Assembly (NCBI RefSeq): GCF_017569205.1
Contig: NZ_CP071870.1
Coordinates: forward strand, 1,922,001-1,986,000
Length of the DNA: 64,000 nt
Source of the DNA: Propioniciclava sp. MC1595
GTDB taxonomy: Bacteria; Actinomycetota; Actinomycetes; Propionibacteriales; Propionibacteriaceae
Direction: 5' to 3'
In this document: positions 48,210 to 51,415 of the stretch, piece after piece
How positions within the stretch are numbered: position 1 is the first letter of the stretch
Layout: each line of letters starts with the position of its first letter
Position numbers and translations under genes: made by a program
Notes under the pieces: model-generated
Told to the model about the DNA's origin: nothing
Seen by the model: the letters and a program-made list of their open reading frames with translations, nothing else
Databases searched by the model: none

Positions 48210-49562
48210 ATGGCAGCCGAGGACCAGCCGAACCCGATGGAGGAGTTCCTCCGGCAGTTCGGCATCACGCCCGGCCCGGACGGCACCTTCGACCTCAACC
48301 AGCTGATGGGTCCCCTGCAGCAGGCGATGCAGCAGTTCAGCCGCCAGATGTCGGCGGCCGGCACCGGGACCGGCGACGGGCTCAACTGGACGCTCATCAA
48401 GGACATCGCCCGCAAGGTGACGGCGTCCTCGGGGCCGGACCCGTCGCCCGCGGCGTCCGAGGCGGTCGCGATCCGCGACACGGTCGGGCTGGCGGAACTG
48501 TGGCTGGACGAGCACACCTCGTTCGGCCGCACGTCGGCCTCGGCGGCCACCTGGAGCCGCGCCGAGTGGGTGGAGGCCACGATCGGGACGTGGGAGCAGC
48601 TGGCCGGCAGCGTCTCCAACTCGCTGGCCGCCGCGGTCGGGTCGCTGCTGCAGCGGGCAGAGCCCGAGGCCGCCGCCATGGTGCAGATGATGGAACCCAT
48701 GATGCGGATGGCCGCCGCCGGCATGCTGTCGGCCCAGGTCGGCCAGGGCATCGGACGCCTCGCGACCGAGGTGCTCTCGGGCTCCGACCTCGGCTTCCCG
48801 CTGACCCCGAAGCCCGTGGTCGCGCTGCTGCCGACCAACATCTCCCACTTCGCCGAGGGGCTGGACGTGCCGCTCGCCGACGTCCGCCTCTACCTGGCCC
48901 TGCGCGAGGCCGCACGCCAGCGGCTCTTCGCCAACGTGGCCTGGCTGGGCCCCCAGATGCTGGCGCTCATCGAGCACTACGCGCGCGGCATCAGCATCGA
49001 CCCCTCGGCGTTCGAGGAGGCCATGGAGGCCCAGATGCAGGGCGGGCTGACCCCCGAGAAGATGGAGGAGTTCGGCCAGCAGATGGCCGGGCGCATCTTC
49101 CAGCCGGCGCTGTCGGAGGAGCAGGTCGAGATCCTGGGCCGCCTCGAGACGCTGGTCGCCAACGTCGAGGGCTGGGTCGACGACGTGGTCTCGCAGGCCA
49201 CCGCGAACCTGATGCCGCGCGCCGACGCGCTGCTGGAGATGGTGCGCCGCCGCCGTGCGAGCGCCGGGGCGTCCGAGAGCGCGCTCAAGACCCTGCTCAA
49301 CCTCGAGTTGCGCCCCCGCCGCGTCCGCGACGCGGCGAACGTGTGGGCCGCCGTGCGCAGCGCCAAGGGCGTCGACGAGCGGGACGCCGTGTGGAGCCAC
49401 CCCGATCTCGTGCCCACCGGCGCCGACCTGGACGACCCGCTCGGCTTCGCCGCCCACGGCCACGTGGCCGAGCAGGCCGCGGCCGAGCTGGACGACCTCG
49501 ACGCGGCGCTGGCACGCCTGATCGAGGAGGAGCGCGGCGGCGAGGGGCCCCGGGCCGACTGA
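48210..49562 (+). CDS. Zincin-like protein, DUF2342 family
   Basis: 450 residues. The start MAAEDQPNPMEEFLRQFG and the middle ALREAARQRLFANVAWLGP match the family often called zinc-dependent metalloprotease (DUF2342/F420-associated type). The His that usually follows in REAAH is Arg here (REAARQRLF), and I find no HExxH, so catalysis is doubtful. A Met/Gln-rich N-terminus precedes the domain. ATG at 48210 follows GAGGAAGGGAG. It diverges from the PDZ-Lon operon, as in mycobacteria. Confidence 0.82.
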   Translation: MAAEDQPNPMEEFLRQFGITPGPDGTFDLNQLMGPLQQAMQQFSRQMSAAGTGTGDGLNWTLIKDIARKVTASSGPDPSPAASEAVAIRDTVGLAELWLDEHTSFGRTSASAATWSRAEWVEATIGTWEQLAGSVSNSLAAAVGSLLQRAEPEAAAMVQMMEPMMRMAAAGMLSAQVGQGIGRLATEVLSGSDLGFPLTPKPVVALLPTNISHFAEGLDVPLADVRLYLALREAARQRLFANVAWLGPQMLALIEHYARGISIDPSAFEEAMEAQMQGGLTPEKMEEFGQQMAGRIFQPALSEEQVEILGRLETLVANVEGWVDDVVSQATANLMPRADALLEMVRRRRASAGASESALKTLLNLELRPRRVRDAANVWAAVRSAKGVDERDAVWSHPDLVPTGADLDDPLGFAAHGHVAEQAAAELDDLDAALARLIEEERGGEGPRAD

Positions 49563-49563
49563 C

Positions 49564-50088
49564 TCAGGCCGGGTTGCGGGCGGCGAAGTCCACGCCCTCG
49601 AGGAAGCCGCGCGCCCGCGACGACGACGGGTGCGCGTTGACCAGCTGCCAGAACCGGGCGCTGTGCTCCCGCTCCTCCAGGTGCGCGACCTCGTGCAACA
49701 GGACGTAGTCGACCACCCAGGTCGGCAGCGTGCGCAGCCGGTCGCTGATCCGGATCTCCCCCGTGGCGATCGTGCACGACCCCCAACGCTGGGACATGTT
49801 CGACACCCAGCGCACCCCGATGGCCGGCTCGGGCCCCGACGCGTGCGGGGCGATGTGCGTGCGGTACAGGTCCTTGGCGCGGGCGGTGAGCTCGTCGTCG
49901 GCCCGCGGCGGGCGGTTGCGCGCCTCCTTGGCCAGGAAGCGGGCCACGAGCCCCGGCACGAGGTCACGGCGTTGCCGGGCGGTCATGTGGTCGGGCACCA
50001 CGACGACCAGCCTGCCGCCCTCCCGGAACGCGGTCATGGTCCGCGTCCGCCGCGTCGAGGTGCGCACCTCGTAGTCCTCCTGGGCCAT
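49564..50088 (-). CDS. M48/YgjP-type metallopeptidase
   Basis: 174 residues with a SprT/YgjP-like zinc site: YVLLHEVAHLEEREHSARFW gives HExxH plus a distal His. The upstream MSQRWGSCTIATGEIRISDRL is the family's second marker. No signal peptide is present, so it is probably cytosolic. It ends two bases from the convergent DUF2342 gene. Its substrate is unknown. Confidence 0.88.
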   Translation of the reverse strand: MAQEDYEVRTSTRRTRTMTAFREGGRLVVVVPDHMTARQRRDLVPGLVARFLAKEARNRPPRADDELTARAKDLYRTHIAPHASGPEPAIGVRWVSNMSQRWGSCTIATGEIRISDRLRTLPTWVVDYVLLHEVAHLEEREHSARFWQLVNAHPSSSRARGFLEGVDFAARNPA

Positions 50089-50111
50089 GGTTCACAGCGT
50101 AGGACGCATGT

Positions 50112-50141
50112 TTGACCCCGCGCGTCGGCGGCCAGTAGGTT
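50112..50141 (+). promoter_or_regulatory. Promoter in the gap before the zinc ribbon gene
   Basis: TTGACC (50112-50117) and TAGGTT (50136-50141) with an 18-base spacer. The start near 50148 would open directly into the hairpin described next. Confidence 0.55.
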
Positions 50142-50147
50142 GTGCGC

Positions 50148-50220
50148 AGGACCCCCGGGAAGGGGTCGGATGCCCGCAGGGGAAGGCAGGCGTCCGACAC
50201 GCCCGGGGGTCTTGCCTTGT
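50148..50220 (+). ncRNA. Candidate structured RNA, unknown class
   Basis: A 10-bp perfect outer stem (50150-50159 with 50202-50211) encloses a second 10-bp stem (50165-50174 with 50189-50198, one G:U) and a 14-base purine-rich loop CGCAGGGGAAGGCA. A partially U-rich tail TTGCCTTGT follows. Outer bases GCGCAG (50144-50149) could also pair with CTGCGC (50223-50228). It is preceded by a promoter and followed by a second -10-like TATGCT (50250-50255) for the next gene. It resembles no riboswitch or housekeeping RNA that I can recognise. Confidence 0.45.
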
Positions 50221-50313
50221 CGCTGCGCGGTCCCTGTGGGCGTTTCCCCTATGCTTGGCAGGGTCAGTCCCAGCGGGAGTCCGGTGGGGAACCGAACAGC
50301 CAGGAGGAAACCC

Positions 50314-50475
50314 GTGTCGAACGACACCTACAGCGGCAAGTTCTACTGCGTGAAGTGCAAGGACCACCGCGAGGCCGAGGGCGCCGTCTCTGTCAACGAG
50401 AAGGGCACCCGCATTGCCAAGGCGAAGTGCCCCGAGTGCGGCACCAACCTCACCCGCTTCCTGCCGAAGGCCTGA
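50314..50475 (+). CDS. Small zinc ribbon protein (DUF5679-like)
   Basis: 53 residues with two CxxC knuckles: FYCVKCKDH (Cys11/Cys14) and AKCPECGTN (Cys39/Cys42), forming a zinc ribbon. It resembles DUF5679 proteins. GTG at 50314 has a strong AGGAGGAAA site. The upstream gap holds a structured RNA candidate, and a hairpin at 50493-50528 follows. The function is unknown; nucleic-acid binding is plausible. Confidence 0.8.
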   Translation: MSNDTYSGKFYCVKCKDHREAEGAVSVNEKGTRIAKAKCPECGTNLTRFLPKA

Positions 50476-50492
50476 GTCCTCGGCAGACAGCC

Positions 50493-50528
50493 ACGAGGGG
50501 CGTCGGGATCATTCCCGGCGCCCCTCGT
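50493..50528 (+). terminator. Hairpin after the zinc ribbon gene
   Basis: Arms 50493-50507 and 50514-50528 (ACGAGGGGCGTCGGG and its complement with one G:U) around a 6-base loop, 17 bases after the stop. Confidence 0.78.
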
Positions 50529-50617
50529 CCGTCCCCGGACGGGACGGTGTTGTCCGATTGTTGTCCGTCCTCCGTGGTCCCTCCCCCCGACGCCCCCGCT
50601 GCGGCACGCTGGTGCGC

Positions 50618-51415
50618 GTGCCCACCCCACGCCTGACCCTCACCCGCCCCCTGTGCGTCCTCTGGCGCCCCGACGGGCGCCTCCAACTCGGCCTCGACTG
50701 CGAGGACGGCCTGGTCCTGGCCGACGTCCCCGCCGGCACGGACGCCGCCCTGCGCGCCTTCCGCTCCCCCCGCACCCCGCTCGAGGTGTCGCGCCTGGTG
50801 CCGCTGGTCCCCCGTGAGGACCTGGACCGCGTCCTGGGTGCCCTCCTCGACCGCGGGCTCCTCGCGCCCGAGCCCGCCGGTCACGCCGGCACCGCGACGG
50901 TGCTCGGCACCGGGCCGCTGGCCGAGCACGTCGCCGAGCTCCTGGCCGGCGAGGGGATGGCCGTCCGCACCGGCACCCGGGCCGCCACCGACGCGGTGGG
51001 CCTCGTCGTCGTATGCACGGCGACGGTGGAGCCCGACCGGGTGCTCACCCGGGACCTCACGGCCGCGGGCATCCCCCACCTGGTCGTGCGCGCGGAACCG
51101 GAGCGCGCGGTGGTCGGCCCCTTCGTCGTCCCGGGACGGACCGCGTGCGTCCACTGCTCCGACCTCGTCCGGCGGGAGCTGGACCCCGGCTGGCCGCACC
51201 TGCTGGCCCAGCTGTGCCGCAGCGAGCACCTCCCCGCACCCCGGCAGGCGGCCTGGGCGGCCGCGATGGCTGCCGCGCAGGTGGCGTGCTGGCGCTCCGG
51301 CCAGGTGCCTGAGACGGGCGGGACGACCCTGGAACTGGACGCCCACACCGGCGCGCTGGGGGCGCGCCGCTGGCCGCGCCACCCCGACTGCGGGTGCGTG
51401 CTCGCCGCCGCGTAG
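50618..51415 (+). CDS. ThiF/E1-like protein (cyclodehydratase-related)
   Basis: 265 residues. The first third is a small winged-helix-like region with PLEVSRLVPLVPREDLDRVL; a Rossmann part (TVLGTGPLAEHVAELLAGEG) and an E1-like end follow. The zinc pairs are CVHC (in GRTACVHCSDLVRRELDP) and CGC near the C-terminus (HPDCGCVLAAA), as in the ThiF/MoeB superfamily and cyclodehydratases. It has no partner peptide or YcaO gene here. The equivalent location in mycobacteria holds a comparable gene next to uvrD2. GTG at 50618 or 50612 could start it. Confidence 0.75.
   Translation: MPTPRLTLTRPLCVLWRPDGRLQLGLDCEDGLVLADVPAGTDAALRAFRSPRTPLEVSRLVPLVPREDLDRVLGALLDRGLLAPEPAGHAGTATVLGTGPLAEHVAELLAGEGMAVRTGTRAATDAVGLVVVCTATVEPDRVLTRDLTAAGIPHLVVRAEPERAVVGPFVVPGRTACVHCSDLVRRELDPGWPHLLAQLCRSEHLPAPRQAAWAAAMAAAQVACWRSGQVPETGGTTLELDAHTGALGARRWPRHPDCGCVLAAA

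Follow-up and report, generated by a model that had tools for sequence, protein, structure and literature searches.

Is the strongly structured gap in front of a small zinc-ribbon gene in Propioniciclava sp. MC1595 the gene of an RNA in its own right, and, if so, on what would such an RNA act? The window, i.e., the whole stretch of 64,000 nucleotides of DNA that was analysed, had been described in preliminary form as carrying in this gap a promoter-like TTGACC-18-TAGGTT followed by two nested 10-bp stems with a 14-base loop, which matched no known RNA class and could be either an independent small RNA (sRNA) or a leader regulating the 53-residue zinc-ribbon protein. The features of the locus are as follows, in window coordinates.

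49564–50088, minus strand: YgjP-like metallopeptidase gene, the divergent neighbour (domain match)
50112–50117, plus strand: −35 element TTGACC of the predicted sRNA promoter (sequence; kept in homologous loci)
50136–50141, plus strand: −10 element TAGGTT of the predicted sRNA promoter, 18-nt spacer to the −35 element (kept in homologous loci)
50148–50222, plus strand: predicted small RNA of ~75 nt, its start placed from the −10 element and its end from the end of the outer stem and a T-containing tail
50146–50159, plus strand: 5′ arm of the outer stem, GCAGGACCCCCGGG (RNA folding; covariation)
50165–50174, plus strand: 5′ arm of the inner stem (RNA folding; covariation)
50178–50185, plus strand: apical loop A-GGGGAAG, 8 nt, with 50179–50185 complementary over 7 nt to CUUCCCC, the loop of mraW RNA
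50189–50198, plus strand: 3′ arm of the inner stem (RNA folding; covariation)
50202–50215, plus strand: 3′ arm of the outer stem, CCCGGGGGTCTTGC, with TTGTC coming next (RNA folding)
50250–50255, plus strand: TATGCT, a second −10-like element, assigned to the DUF5679 gene (sequence; in most congeners by eye)
50314–50475, plus strand: DUF5679 zinc-ribbon gene, 53 aa, GTG start (PF18930, E = 3e-11), a neighbour outside the system

Both promoter hexamers and the 18-nt spacer are present as described, and the structure exceeds chance: folding of 50112–50230 yields −74.4 kcal/mol (z = −4.31), and 0 of 200 shuffled sequences folded equally well or better. The opposite strand reaches z = −3.94, which is expected because the hairpin is nearly perfect. 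The nesting of the stems is retained, whereas their dimensions are revised: the outer stem has 14 bp and the inner stem 10 bp, plus 2 bp closing an 8-nt loop, and the former 14-base loop corresponds to these 8 nt together with the two pairs that close them and the mismatch alongside. The structure does end ahead of the second −10-like element, TATGCT. A simple promoter scan of 49400–51000 reported zero sites because TAGGTT resembles TATAAT poorly, and the promoter call rests on conservation. The outer 3′ arm CCCGGGGGTCTTGC and the following TTGTC probably act as a terminator. A terminator-like hairpin also lies behind the DUF5679 gene (50536–50556, plus strand).

The hairpin almost certainly represents a real sRNA family, as judged from comparative sequence analysis. 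A DNA search of 57 genomes, including its own, returned 11 matches, and in an early alignment the stems vary and the loop GCAGGGGAAGGC is constant, including at L011 (Granulicoccus), a locus lacking a detected DUF5679. A covariance model, R1, was constructed from 17 loci and used with a cut-off of E ≤ 0.01 for class counts; it matches the window RNA at G000:C1:1972148-1972213 (E = 3.3e-9), the window sequence being among the 17 used to build it. Of the 246 genomes of the class Actinomycetes, 50 match, and all 50 were inspected: each has a TTGA-type promoter followed by a long hairpin whose loop contains GGGGAAG, with A or AA ahead of GGGGAAG except for U in G184 and AC in G285. R1 also detects the RNA in 17 of 21 additional genomes from the window's family; G015, of the same family, has mraW RNA and no sRNA match at E 1. 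A search of 39 chosen genomes at E ≤ 1 gave 27 with matches, one of which, G064, was not borne out on inspection, and its locus L342 (E = 0.36) was rejected as a family copy, the loop not being seen.

Compensatory change among homologous gaps, for which the preliminary description had proposed a check, is strong. The alignment examined comprised 82 distinct loci, i.e., the 97 matches of alignment A4 minus 15 rows representing the opposite strand of kept loci; 86 loci were considered, L156, L341, L342, and L343 fell short of E 0.01, and the near-duplicates L311 and L313 were left out. Compensatory changes are found at 17 of 18 modelled base pairs, including 10 of 10 in the outer stem, and paired cells amount to 94.1%, compared with a mean of 81.9% and a maximum of 83.2% in 500 shuffles, a value that leans upward because the alignment was fitted to the R1 model. 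A MAFFT alignment of 17 loci agrees (89.0% paired vs 79.7%; 12 of 18 pairs changed on both sides). While the stems diverge, GGGGAAG is constant in 82 of 82 loci, all of them found by R1, which itself contains the seed. Furthermore, TTGA[CT]-17/18-TANNNT occurs upstream in 81 of the 82 loci, compared with 3 of 4100 shuffles (the less conforming locus, L340, has TTGCC), and the hairpin begins 5–12 nt past the −10 element. A T-rich tail follows the hairpin in some AT-richer genomes (L156, L324, and L328), as expected of an intrinsic terminator.

The wider searches are consistent with this distribution. The pattern TTGAC-N45/70-GCAGGGGAAGGC was found at 12 places in 11 of the 246 genomes; eight belong to the family (L042, L043, L045, L046, L047, L049, and L051, by fold and promoter, and L050, which is the window), L053 is the leader of the DUF3145 gene in the same genome, discussed below, and L044, L048, and L052 were rejected because they look like chance. 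Extension of R1 to E 10 in 14 genomes contributed L156 (G164), a weak match that is genuine, and the DUF3145 leaders L158 and L163; the remaining new matches in these genomes have no GGGGAAG, except L165, which looks accidental and was rejected. A pattern scan of named genomes gave 44 stretches, including ones from Propioniciclava, Granulicoccus, many Nocardioides, and Pimelobacter, and from metagenome-assembled Frankiaceae, Sporichthyaceae, and Geodermatophilaceae; among 13 stretches inspected, the promoter is present in 12 and missing from one labelled Thiodictyon. A typical sRNA copy is also found in L132 (JAJAYQ010000210.1), titled as a Spirochaetaceae metagenome-assembled genome, and this title or the binning is doubtful because the same contig occurs as G148 in the actinobacterial class set. 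No Rfam 15 family matches the window hairpin at the gathering threshold, and for 19 further sRNA or DUF3145-leader loci the sole Rfam 15 matches are two tRNAs. The family is absent from Rfam 15 and is carried by Actinomycetes.

The two readings offered at the outset can be separated by the position of the zinc-ribbon gene, which is confirmed as DUF5679. It lies downstream on the same strand at 34 of 68 distinct loci (33 by pattern match and L010 by eye), as would suit a leader or attenuator of this gene. However, a −10-like element of its own lies between the hairpin and the gene, and by eye a TATGCT-like −10 element lies behind the hairpin in the window's genus; the gene is ~1.1 kb away in L060, L067, L071, L077, and L081 (family f3, Nocardioidaceae-type), and no DUF5679 was found in a fetched flank of up to 1.5 kb at the other half of the 68 loci, of which four have <1.4 kb downstream, L342 being counted though an unconfirmed copy. 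The hairpin is thus not always upstream of DUF5679, and its loop is constant whether or not DUF5679 adjoins. A leader function is very unlikely on this evidence, and the synteny looks like an old neighbourhood with no cis function. A GC-rich hairpin sited between genes could also be a DNA-level element or a terminator without function of its own, which is scarcely credible: the promoter is conserved in register with the hairpin, the loop is constant on freely changing, covarying stems, and the structure is too complex for a plain terminator. An independent small RNA is the reading that the sequences favour, by the kept promoter, the covariation, and the copies away from DUF5679; from the promoter signal we infer transcription, and the transcript is a predicted one.

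The loop points to a partner for this predicted RNA. GGGGAAG and CUUCCCC, the apical loop of the Rfam mraW RNA (RF01746), are exactly complementary, and CUUCCCC was found in the loop of mraW RNA at 30 of 30 loci fetched. The earlier view that the hairpin belongs to no known RNA class thus holds for Rfam 15, whereas its loop is the complement of that of a known class. A permissive Rfam scan placed RF01746 on the minus strand of the window hairpin at 20.9 bits (E = 0.038; cut-off 50) and listed no plus-strand match up to E 10; this weak match arises because the mraW loop CUUCCCC complements GGGGAAG. Membership of the window hairpin in mraW RNA was rejected on the score of 20.9 bits, the complementary loop, and a locus apart from mraZ and rsmH. 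The mraW RNA of the same genome lies in the dcw cluster of cell-division genes, flanked by the stop codon of mraZ and what is probably the rsmH (mraW) ribosome-binding site:

G000:C1:1183356-1183461: mraW RNA of the same genome (L019), 0.79 Mb from the sRNA

In either RNA the loop is built from the seven complementary bases and, in most cases, one or two unpaired ones 5′ of them, a shape that we take to suit kissing loops. For two random GC-rich loops of these sizes, the chance of a 7-nt match is 0.0009, which refers to one pair chosen post hoc when other RNA families could have matched too. In the 64-kb window, both strands together contain 13 GGGGAAG and 13 CUUCCCC, of which 3 and 4 sites, respectively, are flanked by pairs at 6 or more of 8 positions (the sRNA loop included), and against this background a CUUCCCC hairpin would occur by chance in a given 500-nt region in ~2% of cases.

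An Rfam mraW match is present in 36 of the 50 sRNA-positive genomes, and CUUCCCC was found in all 35 that were read, with a clean stem in 33 and a bulged one in two (G127 and G148). Among the 14 sRNA-positive genomes missed by Rfam mraW, seven were readable 3′ of mraZ, and all seven have CUUCCCC hairpins, with two such sites in G037 and G233 (by fold) and G284 (by stem count). The target loop is accordingly present in 42 of 42 sRNA-positive genomes read, the eight left out of the 50 being four without an rsmH match, one with an rsmH fragment, two others, and G218, which has an mraW match. Two hairpins with CUUCCCC or UUCCCC loops, missed by Rfam mraW, lie 3′ of mraZ and upstream of rsmH in L205, L208, L214, and L216. 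Presence of the sRNA is not significantly associated with that of Rfam mraW in 246 genomes (p = 0.14) because mraW is so widespread. In 117 of 153 genomes with an Rfam mraW match there is no sRNA match at E 0.01, and the sRNA therefore cannot be needed for mraW function everywhere. No compensating change between the two loops was found in nature, because both seeds are constant. Two properties of a trans-acting base-pairing sRNA are observed, namely, a conserved RNA structure and a conserved seed complementary to a conserved target site, and mraW RNA is, on the evidence of these sequences, probably the partner.

The same loop has a second carrier. A GGGGAAG hairpin lies directly upstream of DUF3145 genes at 27 of 28 loci of the first set, which spans Actinomycetes, with a sequence that is typically CGY(A/U)GGGGAAGRCG and a closing pair that is, by eye, C-G in some loci and U-A in others. 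This leader is also present in families without a detected sRNA, e.g., f7 and f39; where the sRNA is undetected, it would be the only known partner of the mraW hairpin. It has no Rfam 15 family match. DUF3145 (PF11343) is a family of unknown function, for which a structure search gave no solved relative (best E 0.063); in the available part of PMC13118837, DUF3145/Rv2239c is merely listed. In the genome of the window, the gene and its leader are located as follows.

L053:981-1472, minus strand: DUF3145 gene (PF11343)
G000:C1:2041221-2041290, minus strand: DUF3145 leader hairpin with a GGGGAAG loop

The two complementary loops are kept and lost together. Among 56 genomes with DUF3145 and a readable mraZ–rsmH region, 35 lie outside family f22 (probably Streptomyces), and 35 of these 35 combine GGGGAAG in front of DUF3145 with a CUUCCCC hairpin close to rsmH; for G224, with a short flank, the DUF3145 loop was taken from the first set of DUF3145 loci. 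When a strict threshold of 5 of 8 stem pairs is applied to each loop, 28 of the 35 remain. Of the 21 genomes of f22, 19 are without both hairpin loops, the mraW loop having decayed or been lost together with the DUF3145 leader loop (L197, L199, L202, and L252-L268), and some f22 DUF3145 leaders show a decayed loop, e.g., GGGAAAG. G094 is the sole f22 genome that retains GGGGAAG, and it has kept CUUCCCC too; CUUCCCC in G247 was judged accidental, and in G172 the seven bases occur without a stem. Fisher's test for joint presence or loss gives p = 5e-14 class-wide, ignoring phylogeny, and p = 0.095, not significant, within f22; the joint loss is a matter of few evolutionary events. Outside this set, G032 (98% complete) has no mraW hairpin, DUF3145, or sRNA, and its mraZ abuts rsmH. 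In G019, G060, and G066 (95, 93, and 99% complete), the mraW loop and the sRNA are kept and DUF3145 was not detected, which speaks for the mraW hairpin, as opposed to DUF3145, as the element to which the sRNA responds.

From these observations, we infer binding in the cell, a regulatory effect of either sign, and an order of regulator and target. The sRNA of ~75 nt would be transcribed from its own housekeeping-type promoter as a single two-part hairpin with a terminator-like base, and this rigid rod would present the constant 7-nt seed GGGGAAG at its apex. The seed would pair with the CUUCCCC loop of the mraW hairpin, 3′ of mraZ and before rsmH, in a kissing-loop complex that would alter rsmH translation or transcript stability at the mraZ–rsmH junction, and the division and cell-wall genes behind rsmH would be controlled along with rsmH. 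In the window's genome, the mraW hairpin reaches to just before the ribosome-binding site of rsmH, and in f3 genomes it can be 270–375 nt away, so that an effect on stability or processing is no less likely than direct blocking. The DUF3145 mRNA leader, with the same GGGGAAG hairpin, may bind the same dcw loop, and the sRNA may work in parallel with this leader or as a decoy for it. That a trans-acting sRNA controls dcw expression by pairing with the mraW hairpin in a 7-bp kissing-loop complex appears fairly likely from the sequences; for dcw control as the main outcome, the chances are even.

The three RNAs also permit other assignments of roles. The sRNA and the DUF3145 leader share a loop and similar closing pairs, and conservation of both would suit recognition by a protein; an RNA-binding protein on GGGGAAG hairpins, possibly DUF3145 itself, would then control DUF3145 translation, the sRNA would be its sponge, as CsrB is for CsrA, and the match to the mraW loop would be chance or secondary. 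Such a protein would leave unexplained both the exact 7-nt complementarity to a second widely conserved loop (0.0009 for one pair) and the joint loss of the mraW loop in f22, and we regard it as improbable; DUF3145 in particular is unlikely to be the protein because the sRNA occurs in G019, G060, and G066 without detected DUF3145. The direction of regulation could instead be reversed, with the dcw hairpin, either within the mRNA or after release by RNase III as a stable fragment, regulating the DUF3145 leader by kissing and the sRNA serving as a decoy that relieves DUF3145. The position of the DUF3145 hairpin directly upstream of the start codon, its occurrence in families without a detected sRNA (f7 and f39), and the cleavage of mraZ mRNA by RNase III in Corynebacterium glutamicum (Maeda 2016, as cited in PMC8247434) favour this order of events. 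The same three genomes, with sRNA and mraW hairpin and no detected DUF3145, would have nothing to relieve, and the reversed direction seems rather unlikely, if less so than a shared protein. Actinomycetes could also keep a class-wide RNA–RNA network, in which the constant 7-nt loop pair links dcw mRNA, through the mraW hairpin, to DUF3145 mRNA by mRNA–mRNA kissing, and an sRNA copying the DUF3145-side loop was added in many lineages as a tunable competitor; this is plausible at slightly less than an even chance. If the network reading is true, the orphan mraW RNA motif gains a function. The function of mraW RNA becomes directly testable with two short RNAs, which bears on how actinobacteria control division genes and provides a first clue to DUF3145. 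Furthermore, the system is an example of one loop pair held constant as the surrounding stems drift.

Several known RNAs are comparable. In S. aureus RNAIII-rot, E. coli OxyS-fhlA, and ColE1 RNAI-RNAII, short complementary loops start binding; compared by description, the present case differs in that one loop pair is apparently kept across much of a bacterial class. The 6C RNA (RF01066) of Actinobacteria is likewise a small RNA with hairpin loops, which are C-rich and thought to pair with targets, whereas the loop of the window sRNA is purine-rich and its hairpin has no Rfam match at the gathering threshold. The mraW RNA itself is, like the sRNA, an Actinomycetes hairpin with a conserved apical loop, complementary to that of the sRNA; unlike the sRNA, a free-standing gene elsewhere, it is a cis element 3′ of mraZ. 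It was named as a candidate structured RNA in 2010 (PMC2864571). In the open-licence literature, at the level of titles and abstract beginnings, no dedicated sRNA tied to mraW RNA and no mechanism for mraW RNA were found. The nearest working precedent known to us, by analogy, is StsR of Rhodobacter sphaeroides, an sRNA that binds UpsM/dcw 5′ UTR RNA and affects dcw expression and cell division (PMC8307010; PMC5089854); Hfq is a binding partner of both StsR and UpsM, and UpsM is affected by way of RNase E (PMC8307010). Both cases would involve a trans-acting sRNA on an RNA of the dcw transcript, as is proposed here from sequence; compared by description, StsR belongs to Proteobacteria and targets a long 5′ leader, whereas the target here is a hairpin behind mraZ. 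CoryneRegNet predicts 22 sRNAs on mraZ in C. glutamicum, according to the available part of PMC8247434. A transcript of the present family may already have been detected and stand unnamed in a Propionibacterium RNA-seq list such as that for P. acnes (PMC3848588).
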